A stretch of DNA of 64,000 bases from Nitrososphaerota archaeon (GTDB taxonomy: Archaea > Thermoproteota > Nitrososphaeria > Nitrososphaerales > Nitrosopumilaceae), in NCBI GenBank assembly GCA_028867595.1, contig JAGWGB010000004.1, positions 1-64,000 of the forward strand. Direction: 5' to 3'. Position numbers and translations under genes: made by a program. Within the stretch, counting starts at the first letter, position 1; every line of letters begins with the position of its first letter. Below the pieces are notes generated by a model. It saw only the letters and a program-made list of their open reading frames with translations. It ran no database searches and had not been told where the DNA came from. Shown here one piece after another: positions 48,450-54,435 of this stretch.

Positions 48450-49238
48450 TTACTTGGATAAAAAGTCAAGCACAAGTTTAGAAAATTCAAAAGGCCTTTC
48501 TTCATACGGTATGTGACCGCATCCATCCATTATAACCAGTTCACAGTTTGGAATTGATGAGGCAAAATCTTTTGAATATTCTACTGGGATCATCTTGTCA
48601 TTGCTTCCCCATATGAGCAGTGTTGGGATCTTGATATGGCCAAGTTTTTCTGATATGGCAGGTGAATTTTTCATCCCTAAAAGCGTGGAGAGAAAAACCA
48701 TCTTTGCATTGTGTCTTTCCATGCTTGAGATAAAGTTCTCAACAGATTTGGAGTTTATCTCTGTGTTTTTTCCTGACATCATTTGATAAGCCAACTTGAC
48801 AGATTCAGGAGTGGGATGCAGCGCAGCCATGATATATGCATCAAGAACTGGGGTGGATTTTTTCATGATTCCTGCAGGAGAAGACAAGACAATTTTTTTA
48901 ATCCGGGGGTTTTGTGCGGCTGCACACTCTGCCACAACCTCGCCTCCAAGCGAAGTGCCTATCATGAATACATTTTGCAGTGACAACACTTTTAGAAACT
49001 CAAGCATGGTTTCCCTGAAAAGATCTGCTGTGTAATCTATCTGCGGCTTGTCGCTTTGGCCATATCCTATCAAGTCTGGTGCGATTACGCGATATTTTTT
49101 ACTCAATAATGGAATTAAAGGAAGCCATCTTTCTGCCATTCCGCCAAGACCGTGGAGCAAAACAACAGTACCATCCGAATGTCCTTCTTCAAGATATCTT
49201 ATCTTGTTTCCATTTATTGTGGCATAATTTTCTTGCAT
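48450..49238 (-). CDS. Alpha/beta hydrolase 1 of the PHA island
   Basis: The 262-aa hydrolase has the oxyanion HGLGG (about 29-33), nucleophile Ser96 in GTSLGG, acid Asp214 (GSNDKMIP) and His242 (GCGHIPYEERP). The layout is that of meta-cleavage-product hydrolases, lactonases and short-chain esterases. Its close paralogue at 52470 and its position beside PHA genes suggest a hydrolase for hydroxyalkanoate oligomers or thioesters. The exact substrate is not visible in the sequence. Confidence 0.85.
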   Translation of the reverse strand: MQENYATINGNKIRYLEEGHSDGTVVLLHGLGGMAERWLPLIPLLSKKYRVIAPDLIGYGQSDKPQIDYTADLFRETMLEFLKVLSLQNVFMIGTSLGGEVVAECAAAQNPRIKKIVLSSPAGIMKKSTPVLDAYIMAALHPTPESVKLAYQMMSGKNTEINSKSVENFISSMERHNAKMVFLSTLLGMKNSPAISEKLGHIKIPTLLIWGSNDKMIPVEYSKDFASSIPNCELVIMDGCGHIPYEERPFEFSKLVLDFLSK

Positions 49239-49330: not shown

Positions 49331-49771
49331 CTAAGATCCAGATTTTTTGATAAAATCAAGTGAGCCTGAAAGCATTTTCGAATAATAGCCAAGCATCAGA
49401 TGTATGTACATGTCAAGCGTCTTGACTGCCGACACTTGAATCTGCATGTATGTCTGCTGTATGTTGTTTGCCATTTCTATTTGGGTTATTGTCGACTTGG
49501 TGGCCATCTTGGAATATGTCTCAAATGCCTGCAGTACTTTTTGGTCTATTCCCATCTTGGACAAGATCTCATTTTCTGCAATATTGCAAGCTCCGAAAAG
49601 GTCCTGAAGTGAGTGAAGGCATTCGGTATAAAAGTCCGAGTATATCTCCATGTTTGCAGGCAAGAGAGATTCCATCTTGTCAATTACACTGTTGGCATTT
49701 GCGTGCATGATGTCGCATACTGATATGTCCTGTACATTGTCTGTCTTCTCTAGAGTTTTCTTTTGTGCCAT
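49331..49771 (-). CDS. Phasin-like helical protein (146 aa)
   Basis: An all-helical protein with long amphipathic segments (ANMEIYSDFYTECLHSLQDLFGACN, KVLQAFETYSKMATKSTITQIEMANNIQQTYMQIQ, VKTLDMYIHLMLGYYSKMLSGSLDFIKK). This is the look of phasins, which coat PHA granules. It is divergent from phaE and shares the intergenic inverted repeat. The family assignment rests on composition and context, not on a sharp motif. Confidence 0.65.
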   Translation of the reverse strand: MAQKKTLEKTDNVQDISVCDIMHANANSVIDKMESLLPANMEIYSDFYTECLHSLQDLFGACNIAENEILSKMGIDQKVLQAFETYSKMATKSTITQIEMANNIQQTYMQIQVSAVKTLDMYIHLMLGYYSKMLSGSLDFIKKSGS

Positions 49772-49883
49772 CGTATGATATCATAGGTGCAAGGTTTCTT
49801 TTAATGATTTGTGAGTTTAAGATAAAACTTGAAATGTTAACATGAGTGTCTCATTGTTCATTTATTGATGAGACGTTTTTAGC

Positions 49884-49905
49884 TTGCGACAAAACCATGT
49901 CGCAA
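49884..49905. promoter_or_regulatory. Perfect inverted-repeat operator at the phaE promoter
   Basis: TTGCGACA (49884-49891) and TGTCGCAA (49898-49905) are perfect 8-bp inverted arms with a 6-bp spacer. The downstream arm abuts a TATA-like CTATAAG (49909-49915), which lies about 28 bp ahead of the phaE ATG. It also faces the divergent phasin-like gene. The 9 bp TGTCGCAAT next to TATA are also found next to TATA at operator site B (TGTCACAAT at site A). Confidence 0.65.
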
Positions 49906-49942: not shown

Positions 49943-50521
49943 ATGAGTTCTACGGAAAATTTCAAAAAATCACAAGAATACTACAAGCACGTATCTCTAT
50001 TTTGGACTGATTTGCTTTCTCTCATGTCAAGCAGGCCACAGTCACTCATGTCTACAGGGCCTTTTCGAAAACTTGGCGTTAATGCCAAAAAAGTGAATAC
50101 GGAAATGATAGAGATAAACCAAGAATTGACAGAGTTTAACGCTAGGCTTGCAGAATATTACAAGCAACTAATCGATACATGGAACGAGGCACAAAAGCAG
50201 TTTTCCAAAAAAGTGCCAGAAATTCCAACGGATACCGAACATCTCGATTCCACAAAACGCATTTGGATAGATATCTTTGAAAACTATTTTACACGCCTTT
50301 TTGATTCTTCTGAATTTGCAGAAAATTTTGGGAAAATGGTATCAAGCGAACTTGAGCTTGCAAAGCGCTGGAATAACATAACATCGCTCATGCTAGAGTC
50401 TGCCAGCATGCCTACAAAGAACGAGGTTGATGAACTGTACAAAGAATTACACTTGTTGCGAAAAAGAGTTGCCAAACTTGAAAAAATAGCTAATCATGGA
50501 GGAAGCAGAAATGACAAGTGA
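49943..50521 (+). CDS. phaE: Class III PHA synthase subunit PhaE
   Basis: The 192-aa helical protein has FWTDLLSLM near the start and a long C-terminal coiled coil (TKNEVDELYKELHLLRKRVAKLEKIANHGG). PhaE subunits of class III synthases show this architecture, including the RKLEKLGVNAKK-type middle and the heptad end. It is immediately followed, with an 11-bp overlap, by phaC. It should bind PhaC and control its activity. The protein is shorter than the roughly 350 residues of bacterial PhaE, as is usual in archaeal PhaE. Confidence 0.85.
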   Translation: MSSTENFKKSQEYYKHVSLFWTDLLSLMSSRPQSLMSTGPFRKLGVNAKKVNTEMIEINQELTEFNARLAEYYKQLIDTWNEAQKQFSKKVPEIPTDTEHLDSTKRIWIDIFENYFTRLFDSSEFAENFGKMVSSELELAKRWNNITSLMLESASMPTKNEVDELYKELHLLRKRVAKLEKIANHGGSRNDK

Positions 50522-51581
50522 GCTTAAGATAGATCCAAAGTTGTTGGAAGAATTTCTTCAGATGAACAAAAACATCCTGGAAGCGCCAAAGCTTGTTGCT
50601 GCACCTGACGAGATAAGCATGGAGATGACTCCATATGATGTAGTATATACTGAGGGAAAGATGAGACTGCTTCACTTTAACTCTGATGTGAAAAAACAAG
50701 TCAAGACGCCGCTGTTGATAGCATATGCGTTGATCAACCGATATCACATACTGGACATACATCCACAGAAAAGCTGGGTTAGAAACATGTTGGAGCAAGG
50801 TCTTGATGTATACTTGATAGATTGGGGCACGCCGACCAAGATGGATAGGTATCTTGGATTTGATGATTATGTGAACTATTACATGGACAACTGCATCGAT
50901 TTTATTTTGAACGAATCATCAATTGAAAATGTCTCGCTGCAAGGATATTGTACAGGTGGTACACTTGCTACAGTTTACACCGCGCTTCATCCTAAAAAGA
51001 TACGAAACCTTGTTCTTACTGCTCCAGTAATAGATGGGAGCAAGGACAGCACTGTTGTGGCAAATCTTGCAAAGCACATCGATGTTGATATGATGGCAAA
51101 TGTTGTTGGAAACGTTCCGCCTGAATTCATGTATTATGTTTTTTCTATCCTCAAGCCATTTGAGCAAGGTCTTGAAAAATATAACCAGTTTTTCAAGAAC
51201 ATACACAATAAGGAATACGTTGAAAACTTTATTCGTGTGGAAAAATGGCTCAGTGACACGCCTCCAATCCCAGGTGAACTATACAGAGAATGGGTAAAAA
51301 ATGTCTACCAAGACAACCTCTTGATAAGAAACCAGATGAATGTGGCAGGAAGGCAAGTTGACCTCAAAAACATATCCATGCCTGTATTTACGCAGGTTGC
51401 AGTAGGAGACCACCTTGTCTCACCAGAATGCAGCATGCCTATCCATTATGCTGTATCCACAGATGACAAGACATTGAGAATCTACGCTACCGGTCACGTT
51501 GGAATGATAGCAAGTTCGTTTTCTCAGAAAAAGGTATTGCCAGAACTTGGTCTCTGGATAAAAGAAAGGTCGGAAAAATAA
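50511..51581 (+). CDS. phaC: Class III poly(3-hydroxyalkanoate) synthase catalytic subunit
   Basis: The 356-aa alpha/beta-hydrolase-fold polymerase has its nucleophile Cys147 in GYCTGG (lipase box with Cys for Ser), Asp300 in VGDHLVSP and His329 in GHVG. LLIAYALINRYHILDIHPQKSWVRNMLEQGLDVYLIDWG is a PhaC hallmark. It polymerises hydroxyacyl-CoA into PHA. ATG 50511 is chosen because a strong ribosome site (GGAGG, 50498-50502) stands 8 bp before it within phaE. The length fits class III PhaC (about 355). Confidence 0.95.
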   Translation: MTSELKIDPKLLEEFLQMNKNILEAPKLVAAPDEISMEMTPYDVVYTEGKMRLLHFNSDVKKQVKTPLLIAYALINRYHILDIHPQKSWVRNMLEQGLDVYLIDWGTPTKMDRYLGFDDYVNYYMDNCIDFILNESSIENVSLQGYCTGGTLATVYTALHPKKIRNLVLTAPVIDGSKDSTVVANLAKHIDVDMMANVVGNVPPEFMYYVFSILKPFEQGLEKYNQFFKNIHNKEYVENFIRVEKWLSDTPPIPGELYREWVKNVYQDNLLIRNQMNVAGRQVDLKNISMPVFTQVAVGDHLVSPECSMPIHYAVSTDDKTLRIYATGHVGMIASSFSQKKVLPELGLWIKERSEK

Positions 51582-51601: not shown

Positions 51602-52018
51602 CTAGTTTCTTGTTGGTGTCCATGCTGAGAACCATGATTGCAGTATGTTTGCGTTCATATCTGAAAATGCTCGTGTGTTGTCATTGAATGTTTTTACATT
51701 CTGTCTTACTGCATCTATTGTTGCAAGTACTGCTTTGCTTTGAACTGAACTTGTCTTTACTATCTCCTCTGTTGCATCATTTACCGCTTTGAGGTATGCT
51801 GATGGTACGTTCGTAGATAGACCAGTTCTTGATGCGTATTCTTGGTGCATTGAAATTGCATTCTCGATTGTGTTCTTGCATGCTGTTGCATATTCCTGCT
51901 GCAGGTTGGTTACTGCTTGCAAGTACTGTGCTACATTTTTCTCTGCTTCGTCAAAGTATCTATTGACGTTCTGCTTGCATACTGAAAAGATCTCTTTTGT
52001 CTCTGTTGTCTTACTCAC
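51602..52018 (-). CDS. Phasin-like protein (138 aa)
   Basis: A long helical protein: NVNRYFDEAEKNVAQYLQAVTNLQQEYATACKNTIENAISMHQEYA and VKTSSVQSKAVLATIDAVRQNVKTFNDNTRAFSDMNANILQSWFSAW. The pattern matches phasin/PhaP-family granule proteins. Its GTG start overlaps the stop of the upstream AbrB-phasin fusion gene by 4 bp and is preceded by a purine-rich GAGGGGGTGA ribosome site. It converges with phaC. Confidence 0.75.
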   Translation of the reverse strand: MSKTTETKEIFSVCKQNVNRYFDEAEKNVAQYLQAVTNLQQEYATACKNTIENAISMHQEYASRTGLSTNVPSAYLKAVNDATEEIVKTSSVQSKAVLATIDAVRQNVKTFNDNTRAFSDMNANILQSWFSAWTPTRN

Positions 52019-52431
52019 TCTTTCACCCCCTCTTTTCGTTTCTTTCTTTCGACCGGAATCACTATCACCTGGACTAGGTCTTCCTCGTTTACACCAAGAG
52101 CCTCACGTTCGGCCTCTGGTATTGAGATACGACCATTGCTTCCAACTGTTGTCTTGAAAGTGCCCCACGATAACAGCGATGGTAGAAATTGTGATGGATT
52201 GAACAAGTTGTATGCCCCACCTTGCATGTTTGACATGTTTTGTACAAACTCAGATTGGGCCTTGACAGTTTTGTCAGACATCTCTTTTAACATGTTAAGA
52301 GGATTTTGTTGGTGGCTTTTGGCCATCATATCGCCAAACGTCTTCATGAAATCCATCTGTGCCTTTCCGCTTCTCTGTATCCACTCGCGGAACATTTCAG
52401 CAGGATCATATTGGTTGTCATTACCAGTCAT
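52015..52431 (-). CDS. Phasin-like helix fused to an AbrB/SpoVT DNA-binding domain
   Basis: The 138-aa protein has a helical N-terminal part (about 8-70, FREWIQRSGKAQMDFMKTFGDMMAK, MSDKTVKAQSEFVQNMSNM) resembling phasins. A swapped-hairpin AbrB/SpoVT domain (about 91-127) follows, with KTTVGSNGRISIPEAEREALGVNEEDLVQVIVIPV, and the tail is basic. In haloarchaea the AbrB-type PhaR repressor and the phasin PhaP are separate neighbouring genes; here both features are in one chain. The ATG at 52431 is preferred over a long upstream frame overlapping the hydrolase gene. Confidence 0.8.
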   Translation of the reverse strand: MTGNDNQYDPAEMFREWIQRSGKAQMDFMKTFGDMMAKSHQQNPLNMLKEMSDKTVKAQSEFVQNMSNMQGGAYNLFNPSQFLPSLLSWGTFKTTVGSNGRISIPEAEREALGVNEEDLVQVIVIPVERKKRKEGVKE

Positions 52432-52469
52432 TGGTAAATATAACCAATAAATGGTATTTAAATCTGCTG

Positions 52470-53267
52470 CTATTTGACCATGACTAGCCTTGAGCCTAGA
52501 AACTCTAATACTGAATCTGAGAATACGTCTGGAACCTCTACATGCGGCAAGTGGCCACACTCGTCCAGCTCCAAAAACGTGCAGTCCTTGATAGATGATA
52601 CAAATTGGTCTGCATGTTGGATTGGTATTACTTTGTCATGTTTTCCCCACATGACAAGGGTTGGAACCATTATTTTCTTGAGACTTTCTTCTATGTTGGA
52701 ATTTTTGATTCCAAGCACAGACGAGATGAATGCAAGTTTGGCATTTGGCATGGACATTCTTTTTACAAAATCTGAGACAGTAAAGTCGTCTACCGTTCCT
52801 GATCTTGACATCATCTCAAATGCCTCTCTAGCGCTTGTGTGATTGGGATATAGGGCAGCCATCATGTATGCGTCAATTGCGGGAGTGGGAGACTTCATGG
52901 CTCCAGAAGGCGCTACCAACACTATCTTTTCTACGGAATCGTTTATGCTTGCGCAGTGAGCGGCAATCTGTCCTCCAAGCGATGTGCCCACAAGAATTGT
53001 TGACTTGAGGCCAGTACTGTTGATAAAGCCAGAAAGAAACTTGGCGAAAAAATCTATTGTGTAATCCTCTGATGGCTTGTCGCTGTAGCCAAAACCTATC
53101 ATGTCTGGTGCAATAACTCTGTATTTGGAACTAAGACGAGGGATGACTTTGAGCCATCTTTCTGCAGATCCGCCCAATCCGTGGATCAAGATGATCGATT
53201 TATCTGACCTGCCCTCCTCAAGATATCTTATCTTGTGCCCCCAGACCTCTGCAAACTTGGTTTGCAA
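52470..53267 (-). CDS. Alpha/beta hydrolase 2 of the PHA island
   Basis: The 265-aa protein is a paralogue of the 48450 hydrolase (IRYLEEGRSDKSIILIHGLGG, RVIAPDMIGFGYSDKP). Nucleophile Ser96 in GTSLGG, Asp211 (GKHDKVIP) and His239 (ECGHLPHVE) complete the triad. It lies just upstream of the AbrB-phasin fusion in the same direction (about 40 bp). A role in hydroxyalkanoate ester or thioester hydrolysis is suggested by position only. Confidence 0.85.
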   Translation of the reverse strand: MQTKFAEVWGHKIRYLEEGRSDKSIILIHGLGGSAERWLKVIPRLSSKYRVIAPDMIGFGYSDKPSEDYTIDFFAKFLSGFINSTGLKSTILVGTSLGGQIAAHCASINDSVEKIVLVAPSGAMKSPTPAIDAYMMAALYPNHTSAREAFEMMSRSGTVDDFTVSDFVKRMSMPNAKLAFISSVLGIKNSNIEESLKKIMVPTLVMWGKHDKVIPIQHADQFVSSIKDCTFLELDECGHLPHVEVPDVFSDSVLEFLGSRLVMVK

Positions 53268-53343: not shown

Positions 53344-54435
53344 CTATCCGCTTCTAGCAAGTGCCTCTTTTGCGTCCCTTTCGCCCCTATCTATCAATTC
53401 TTTGATTGTGGCAAGCGAAAAGTCGGCATCTTCGAAGAGAAAATGGATATGTTCACGGCGCTGTATCCTAATTATTTGATCTATTATTCCGCCACGGTCA
53501 GAGGCAAGTTTTTGGTATTCTTTCTCAAGTTGTCCAAGCCTTGACTTTGCCTTTTCGTCAAGTGATGATGTGGTAAGTATGTCATGCATCTCGCGTATTA
53601 TCTTGAGGTAGCGCGTCACTATCTTTGACATGTGTACGTTATGCTCTGTCTTGTCAGCGTACATAATGTCCCTTGCTCTGTGCCACACCTCGAACATGTT
53701 GTTTGGAATCTCGTGCTGGTCTCTTGGAAATAGGTCTACGACGTATACTTTTTTATCATACTTTGGAGACGCGTTGATTACTTCACGCAGAGGAGTGTTG
53801 CTCAAAAGCGTCCCATCCCAAAGGTACTTTCCGCTCTTCTGTGTCCATGCTATGCCATAGAATGGATATCCTGCACTTGCAAGTACATGCTCTGCCTCGA
53901 TTTTGTCATACTTGCTGTCAAAGACAGAAGGCTTTGCATTCTGAATGTCAGTTGATGAAACTATCAATCTTGGCTTTTTTGGATCCTGAATTTTTTGAAA
54001 ATCGACATATTGGTTTAGTGTGTTTTTGAGTGGCGTTATATCATACAAGTACTGCCAAAAATATGGTGTAAAATAGTCTGGGCTTGGCAAGAACCATCTT
54101 GGAAAAAACGCCTTGGGGTTTCCAAAAATAGCGGAATAGGCTGATGCAAAGTATGGTCTAATCTCATCAGGCAGTCCGGGAGGCGTGACACCCTCTGACA
54201 AGTCAAGCCAAAACTCTTCTAGCGCTCTTGCGGGTTCGTCACTCTTACTTCCAGTGATGATTGATGCATTGATTGCACCAATTGAGGTTCCGGCAACAAT
54301 ATCAAACTTGATTCCATGTCTATCCAATGCCTTGTAAACTCCACATTCGTAGGCACCAAGAGACCCGCCTCCTTGCAAAATAAGAACTGTCTCAAAATGT
54401 AACGACTGTTTTTCTTTGGAAGAAAGAGACTGCAT
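53344..54435 (-). CDS. Patatin-like phospholipase (DUF3734-type)
   Basis: The 363-aa lipase has the oxyanion GGGSLGAYE (residues 22-30), nucleophile Ser51 in GTSIGAIN and Asp207 in DGTLLSNTPL. A C-terminal extension after the patatin domain (about 250-363) contains VWHRARDIMYADKTEHN, as in the DUF3734 subgroup often found beside PHB and acetoacetate genes. It could act on granule lipid or PHA itself. The divergent gene is the semialdehyde dehydrogenase. Confidence 0.88.
   Translation of the reverse strand: MQSLSSKEKQSLHFETVLILQGGGSLGAYECGVYKALDRHGIKFDIVAGTSIGAINASIITGSKSDEPARALEEFWLDLSEGVTPPGLPDEIRPYFASAYSAIFGNPKAFFPRWFLPSPDYFTPYFWQYLYDITPLKNTLNQYVDFQKIQDPKKPRLIVSSTDIQNAKPSVFDSKYDKIEAEHVLASAGYPFYGIAWTQKSGKYLWDGTLLSNTPLREVINASPKYDKKVYVVDLFPRDQHEIPNNMFEVWHRARDIMYADKTEHNVHMSKIVTRYLKIIREMHDILTTSSLDEKAKSRLGQLEKEYQKLASDRGGIIDQIIRIQRREHIHFLFEDADFSLATIKELIDRGERDAKEALARSG

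Follow-up and report, generated by a model that had tools for sequence, protein, structure and literature searches.

In a 64,000-nucleotide stretch of Nitrosopumilaceae DNA (the window), the gene phaR (52015-52431, minus strand, ATG start) encodes a 138-aa AbrB-family PHA regulator, which we read as an ortholog of haloarchaeal PhaR that represses its own phaR-phaP operon and is titrated by granules. We assign this reading a probability of roughly 0.77. Ammonia-oxidizing archaea rank with the most abundant of all archaea, and PHA synthase genes are present in them. For their PHA, only synthase and degradation genes are named in PMC11082331 and PMC4084955, and our literature search, which took in few subscription journals, found no earlier assignment of a PhaR or a phasin in these organisms. 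With the present reading, a regulator and a candidate phasin could be named for them, along with an operator located to single-base precision, and a regulator known from haloarchaea only would be extended to a second archaeal phylum. PhaR here is ordinary in kind; the location of its operator is the new detail.

The open reading frame proposed in the first-pass annotation is genuine and conserved, with the full-length protein kept in 63/101 relatives. Its N-terminus is MTGNDNQYDPAEMFREWIQRSGKAQMDFMKTF, and the AbrB/SpoVT domain lies toward the other end, at aa 93-126 (52054-52155, minus strand). Domain search upheld the annotated AbrB/SpoVT half. The matches of PhaR to PF04014 (E = 4e-4) and TIGR01439 (E = 3.6e-5) fell short of the curated cut-offs when this sequence was taken alone; among PhaR family members TIGR01439 matched 40/40 (E ≤ 0.1) and PF04014 37/40 (E ≤ 0.01). 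When the family profile was compared with solved structures, the AbrB fold 2glw was the best match (E = 5e-10), followed weakly by 5itm and 2l66. The AlphaFold model was poor overall (mean pLDDT 57; 67-79 in the AbrB part), and a fold search with it against the PDB returned mostly AbrB-like folds at insignificant E-values. Judged by the profile matches, the C-terminal third of PhaR (about aa 93-126) is an AbrB/SpoVT swapped-hairpin domain. PhaR has this DNA-binding fold in common with AbrB, SpoVT, Sso7c4, and MazE proteins, but adds an N-terminal helical half and a PHA-linked context. The Pfam domain is named MazE_antitoxin, as would suit an AbrB/MazE-type antitoxin of a toxin-antitoxin pair. 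That reading was rejected on gene context, with no neighbouring toxin, a phasin candidate as the partner gene, and a strict link to phaC, and its probability is negligible.

Homology to haloarchaeal PhaR exceeds generic AbrB similarity. A PhaR family HMM trained exclusively on ammonia-oxidizing-archaeal proteins gave 73-82 bits for three haloarchaeal PhaRs, versus 18 bits as the top score of any other AbrB protein in the genome of the window. Two of these three haloarchaeal genes are housed in maoC-phaR-phaP-phaE-phaC clusters. Across 40 sequences from ammonia-oxidizing archaea and haloarchaea, GRISIP and A-E-R are invariant, and the invariant positions include K93, G100-P105, A107-R109, Q121, and P126. 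By these sequence comparisons, the window protein is orthologous to haloarchaeal PhaR and is its counterpart in ammonia-oxidizing archaea. Both have a C-terminal AbrB domain with the GRISIP-AER signature and a helical N-terminus, short in haloarchaea, and both have phaP next downstream and a tie to class III phaEC. They differ in that window PhaR has a longer N-terminal part with a duplicated helix, and in that phaE-phaC forms a separate convergent unit in the window, whereas it lies downstream in one run in the maoC(phaJ)-phaR-phaP-phaE-phaC clusters of Haloferax mediterranei and its relatives.

Directly downstream of phaR, and overlapping its stop by 4 bp, lies the candidate phasin gene phaP (51602-52018, minus strand, 138 aa, GTG start). 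This phaR-phaP operon layout is convergent with the adjacent class III PHA synthase genes phaE (49943-50521, plus strand; PF09712, E = 8.7e-15) and phaC (50496-51581, plus strand; TIGR01836, 414 bits, above cut-off). The facing arrangement recurs in nearly all family relatives examined. Among 101 relatives, phaR was present in 63, every one with phaC; four had phaC alone and 34 had neither (Fisher p = 8e-23, with no correction for relatedness). When 300 genomes were sampled from the phylum, 47/47 hits belonged to the same taxonomic order. At three loci (L057, L066, L068), phaC directly abuts phaR with no adjacent phaP, and PhaP homologs are found elsewhere in the genome. Structure prediction gave the PhaP candidate two long helices, at a mean pLDDT of 80, and its relatives gave weak matches to Phasin_2, phasin_2, and Bacillus megaterium PHA proteins. 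It thereby resembles known phasins (Phasin_2, Bacillus megaterium PhaP, haloarchaeal PhaP), which have no significant match to PhaR itself. A fold search of its predicted structure against the PDB found nothing, and it gave no alignment with haloarchaeal PhaP; we call the product a PhaP candidate. Several relatives (G047, G001, G014, G043) have up to six scattered PhaP-like genes, and many carry further phaC paralogs.

The first-pass annotation had named an inverted repeat at phaE as the natural candidate target of the protein. The conserved site lies instead at phaR's own start codon. The candidate PhaR operator there, TTTACCAATGACTGGTAAT (52420-52438, minus strand; arms TTTACC and GGTAAT around AATGACT), spans the start codon. 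An overlapping upstream palindrome, ATTGGTTATATTTACCAAT (52430-52448, minus strand), adds a further half-site with GG at -14/-13. The TATA box TTTAAATA (52455-52462, minus strand) is at -31 to -24 relative to phaR, and in 81 of 92 aligned distinct homologous promoters it is at -31 or -30. Because the TATA box is fixed at this spacing from the ATG, the phaR transcript is predicted to be leaderless. Across Nitrosopumilaceae, the palindrome (T/A)TTACC-N7-GGTAAT is kept in its place over the start codon, and ATTACC-N7-GGTAAT lies at -7 to +12 in the majority of the 92 promoters. Conservation per base is 83-91% in its upstream arm, and its downstream arm forms phaR codons 3-4. Since the palindrome extends into the coding sequence, the codon 3 Gly is GGT in 90/94 genes, versus 238/812 (29%) at the remaining Gly codons in these genes (binomial 8e-43, without correction for kinship). 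By pattern search, the window site is the sole perfect WTTACCN7GGTAAW match in the 1.68-Mb assembly. One relative (G023) has a second perfect site, inside phaC, which is probably due to chance.

The half-sites follow a regular pitch. In 52 non-redundant promoters, CC/GG pairs spaced 10 bp apart were found at -23 (58%), -13 (60%, with another 29% at -14), -3 (88%), and +7 (100%), where the background frequency is 6.6%. Sliding the register abolished the signal except at about one repeat unit. The pair at -23 may be part of the TATA box, which it adjoins. At phaR of the order's other families, the palindrome is not recognisable. In one such family, the phaR promoters (L062-L064, L067) are without ATTACC-N7-GGTAAT, and TCCAATTTATTTCTTGG or a sequence near it adjoins the TATA box, possibly as a diverged operator.

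From this conservation pattern, the palindrome at the phaR start is likely the PhaR operator, and PhaR would be the protein that binds it. Its symmetry and its position across the start codon would also suit an RNA hairpin controlling phaR translation, or a site for a regulator other than PhaR; a different regulator may read it, as the palindrome was looked for at phaR genes only. With the TATA box at -31 to -24, the predicted transcription start coincides with the ATG or lies beside it, which would leave the upstream arm out of the mRNA, and the 10-bp pitch fits DNA binding. We consider a hairpin or a different regulator unlikely.

The inverted repeat at phaE, TTGCGACA-N6-TGTCGCAA (49884-49905, plus strand), is present as annotated, yet it is unconserved. 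None of the close relatives examined has it at phaE, whereas the adjoining TATA-box stretch is retained in them. Half-sites of the TTACC/GGTAA type occur at 1.7 per kb upstream of phaE versus 12 per kb upstream of phaR, seven times more rarely. On these counts, the repeat is probably not a PhaR target. PhaR control of phaEC was rejected as well, because such half-sites are wanting at phaE. A second inverted repeat, GTCTCAT-N13-ATGAGAC (49848-49874), lies between a 146-aa gene and phaE. It is better conserved than the first; GAGAC/GTCTC-like arms are also found in L076 and, less exactly, in L077 and L090.

The N-terminal half had been annotated as phasin-like, and the protein as a phasin-AbrB fusion. 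Two helices were predicted there, at aa 10-38 (with a break of one residue) and aa 44-66 (together 52234-52404, minus strand). Both are more amphipathic than shuffled sequences (p = 0.003 and 0.009), and they appear to be two related copies, with a mutual similarity score of 45 versus 20 ± 4 in shuffles; in 26/27 homologs, the two helices are more alike than in at least 97% of shuffles. PhaRs of haloarchaea and of other families in the order lack helix 1 and retain the second helix only, and the N-terminal half is barely alignable with that of haloarchaeal PhaR (9.6 bits). Scans of aa 1-90 with Pfam and NCBIfam models gave no match to any phasin family. The phasin-related NCBIfam model NF047773 was touched by 2/40 PhaR family members (best E = 0.0027), and hhalign gave no alignment between this half and the neighbouring phasin family (probability 1.7%). 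The term phasin-like therefore describes the amphipathic helices and not kinship. These helices are the candidate granule-binding part of PhaR.

A fusion that takes the place of two proteins, PhaP and PhaR, and targets the phaE repeat would agree with a helical, amphipathic N-terminal half joined to an AbrB half. It is very improbable given that the N-terminal half has no homology to phasins, that a separate PhaP candidate follows in the same operon, that haloarchaeal PhaR has the identical domain order, and that the phaE repeat is not conserved. The supposed contrast with haloarchaea also fails, as their PhaR is already one chain with an AbrB-like domain, located on granules (PMC9049629, PMC7137286). 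PhaR (GAP12) of Haloferax mediterranei is granule-located and represses phaRP (reviewed in PMC9049629 and PMC7137286), and its C-terminal AbrB-like domain is required for this repression (PMC9049629). A granule sensor and DNA binder in one chain was thus already known. The annotated idea of an AbrB-type protein tied to PHA granules and titrated by their surface is probably right; its novelty did not stand, since the logic is that of the Haloferax mediterranei protein.

Under the autorepressor reading, a PhaR dimer would bind the ACC/GGT half-site array on one helix face through its C-terminal AbrB domain. The array would run from just past the TATA box, over the predicted transcription start, to phaR codon 4, and by covering this stretch, bound PhaR would block transcription of phaR and phaP. 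On granule formation, PhaR would adsorb to the PHA surface through its N-terminal amphipathic helices, free PhaR would drop, and PhaR would be released from the DNA. Synthesis of PhaR and the coat protein PhaP would then proceed until the new surface is covered.

Alternatively, PhaR might act mainly as a tether between granule and chromosome, binding DNA loosely instead of repressing specifically. PhaM and PhaF have been described as such tethers in bacteria, and a granule link combined with a DNA-binding fold in one chain would allow tethering. This role seems quite improbable, as the site at phaR's own promoter is specific, conserved, and unique in the genome, and AbrB-domain-dependent repression is reported in Haloferax (PMC9049629).

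The autorepressor reading also agrees with known systems. The Haloferax mediterranei phaRP promoter is more active with PHA present (PMC7137286) and contains four tandem repeats (PMC9049629). Bacterial PhaR, for example, that of Cupriavidus necator, is a granule-titrated repressor of phasin expression (PMC9049629) and works as proposed for window PhaR. The two are unrelated in sequence, and a Pfam scan found no PHB_acc-type domain in window PhaR. In bacteria, phaP and phaR are each under a promoter of their own (PMC9049629).

The phaR promoter of Haloferax larsenii has CC/GG at -80, -70, -60, -51, and -42/-41, the same 10-bp half-site pitch as in the window lineage. This suggests an operator layout shared between the two archaeal groups, although with only one Haloferax promoter the likeness is a lead and not a test. 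The half-site itself differs, being TTACC/GGTAA in the window lineage and ACCATC-like in haloarchaea, and the operator lies over the start codon in the former and about 40-80 bp upstream in the haloarchaeal case. We slightly favor the broader view that one PHA-granule control circuit is common to haloarchaea and ammonia-oxidizing archaea. In this circuit, PhaR would read ACC half-sites arrayed in phase with the DNA helix. In Nitrosopumilaceae, the array would continue through the leaderless start codon into the gene, and the operator would there dictate N-terminal codons of PhaR, for the residues Gly-Asn.

Further genes of possible relevance to PHA flank the cluster. The 146-aa protein next to phaE (49331-49771, minus strand), encoded divergently from it and kept in close relatives only, has no Pfam match at E ≤ 0.01 and is possibly another granule protein. 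Two alpha/beta hydrolases (52470-53267 and 48450-49238, both minus strand), 50% identical to each other, lie on either side of the PHA genes. They match NF050089 (intracellular short-chain PHA depolymerase) below its cut-off (E = 4e-32 and 1e-26), and by these matches are candidate depolymerases. A patatin-like protein (53344-54435, minus strand; PF01734, E = 3e-28) also adjoins the PHA genes, in a position kept in close relatives. Because the granule depolymerase of Haloferax mediterranei is a patatin-like protein, according to a title cited in PMC10948481, this protein is a candidate counterpart of PhaZh1.
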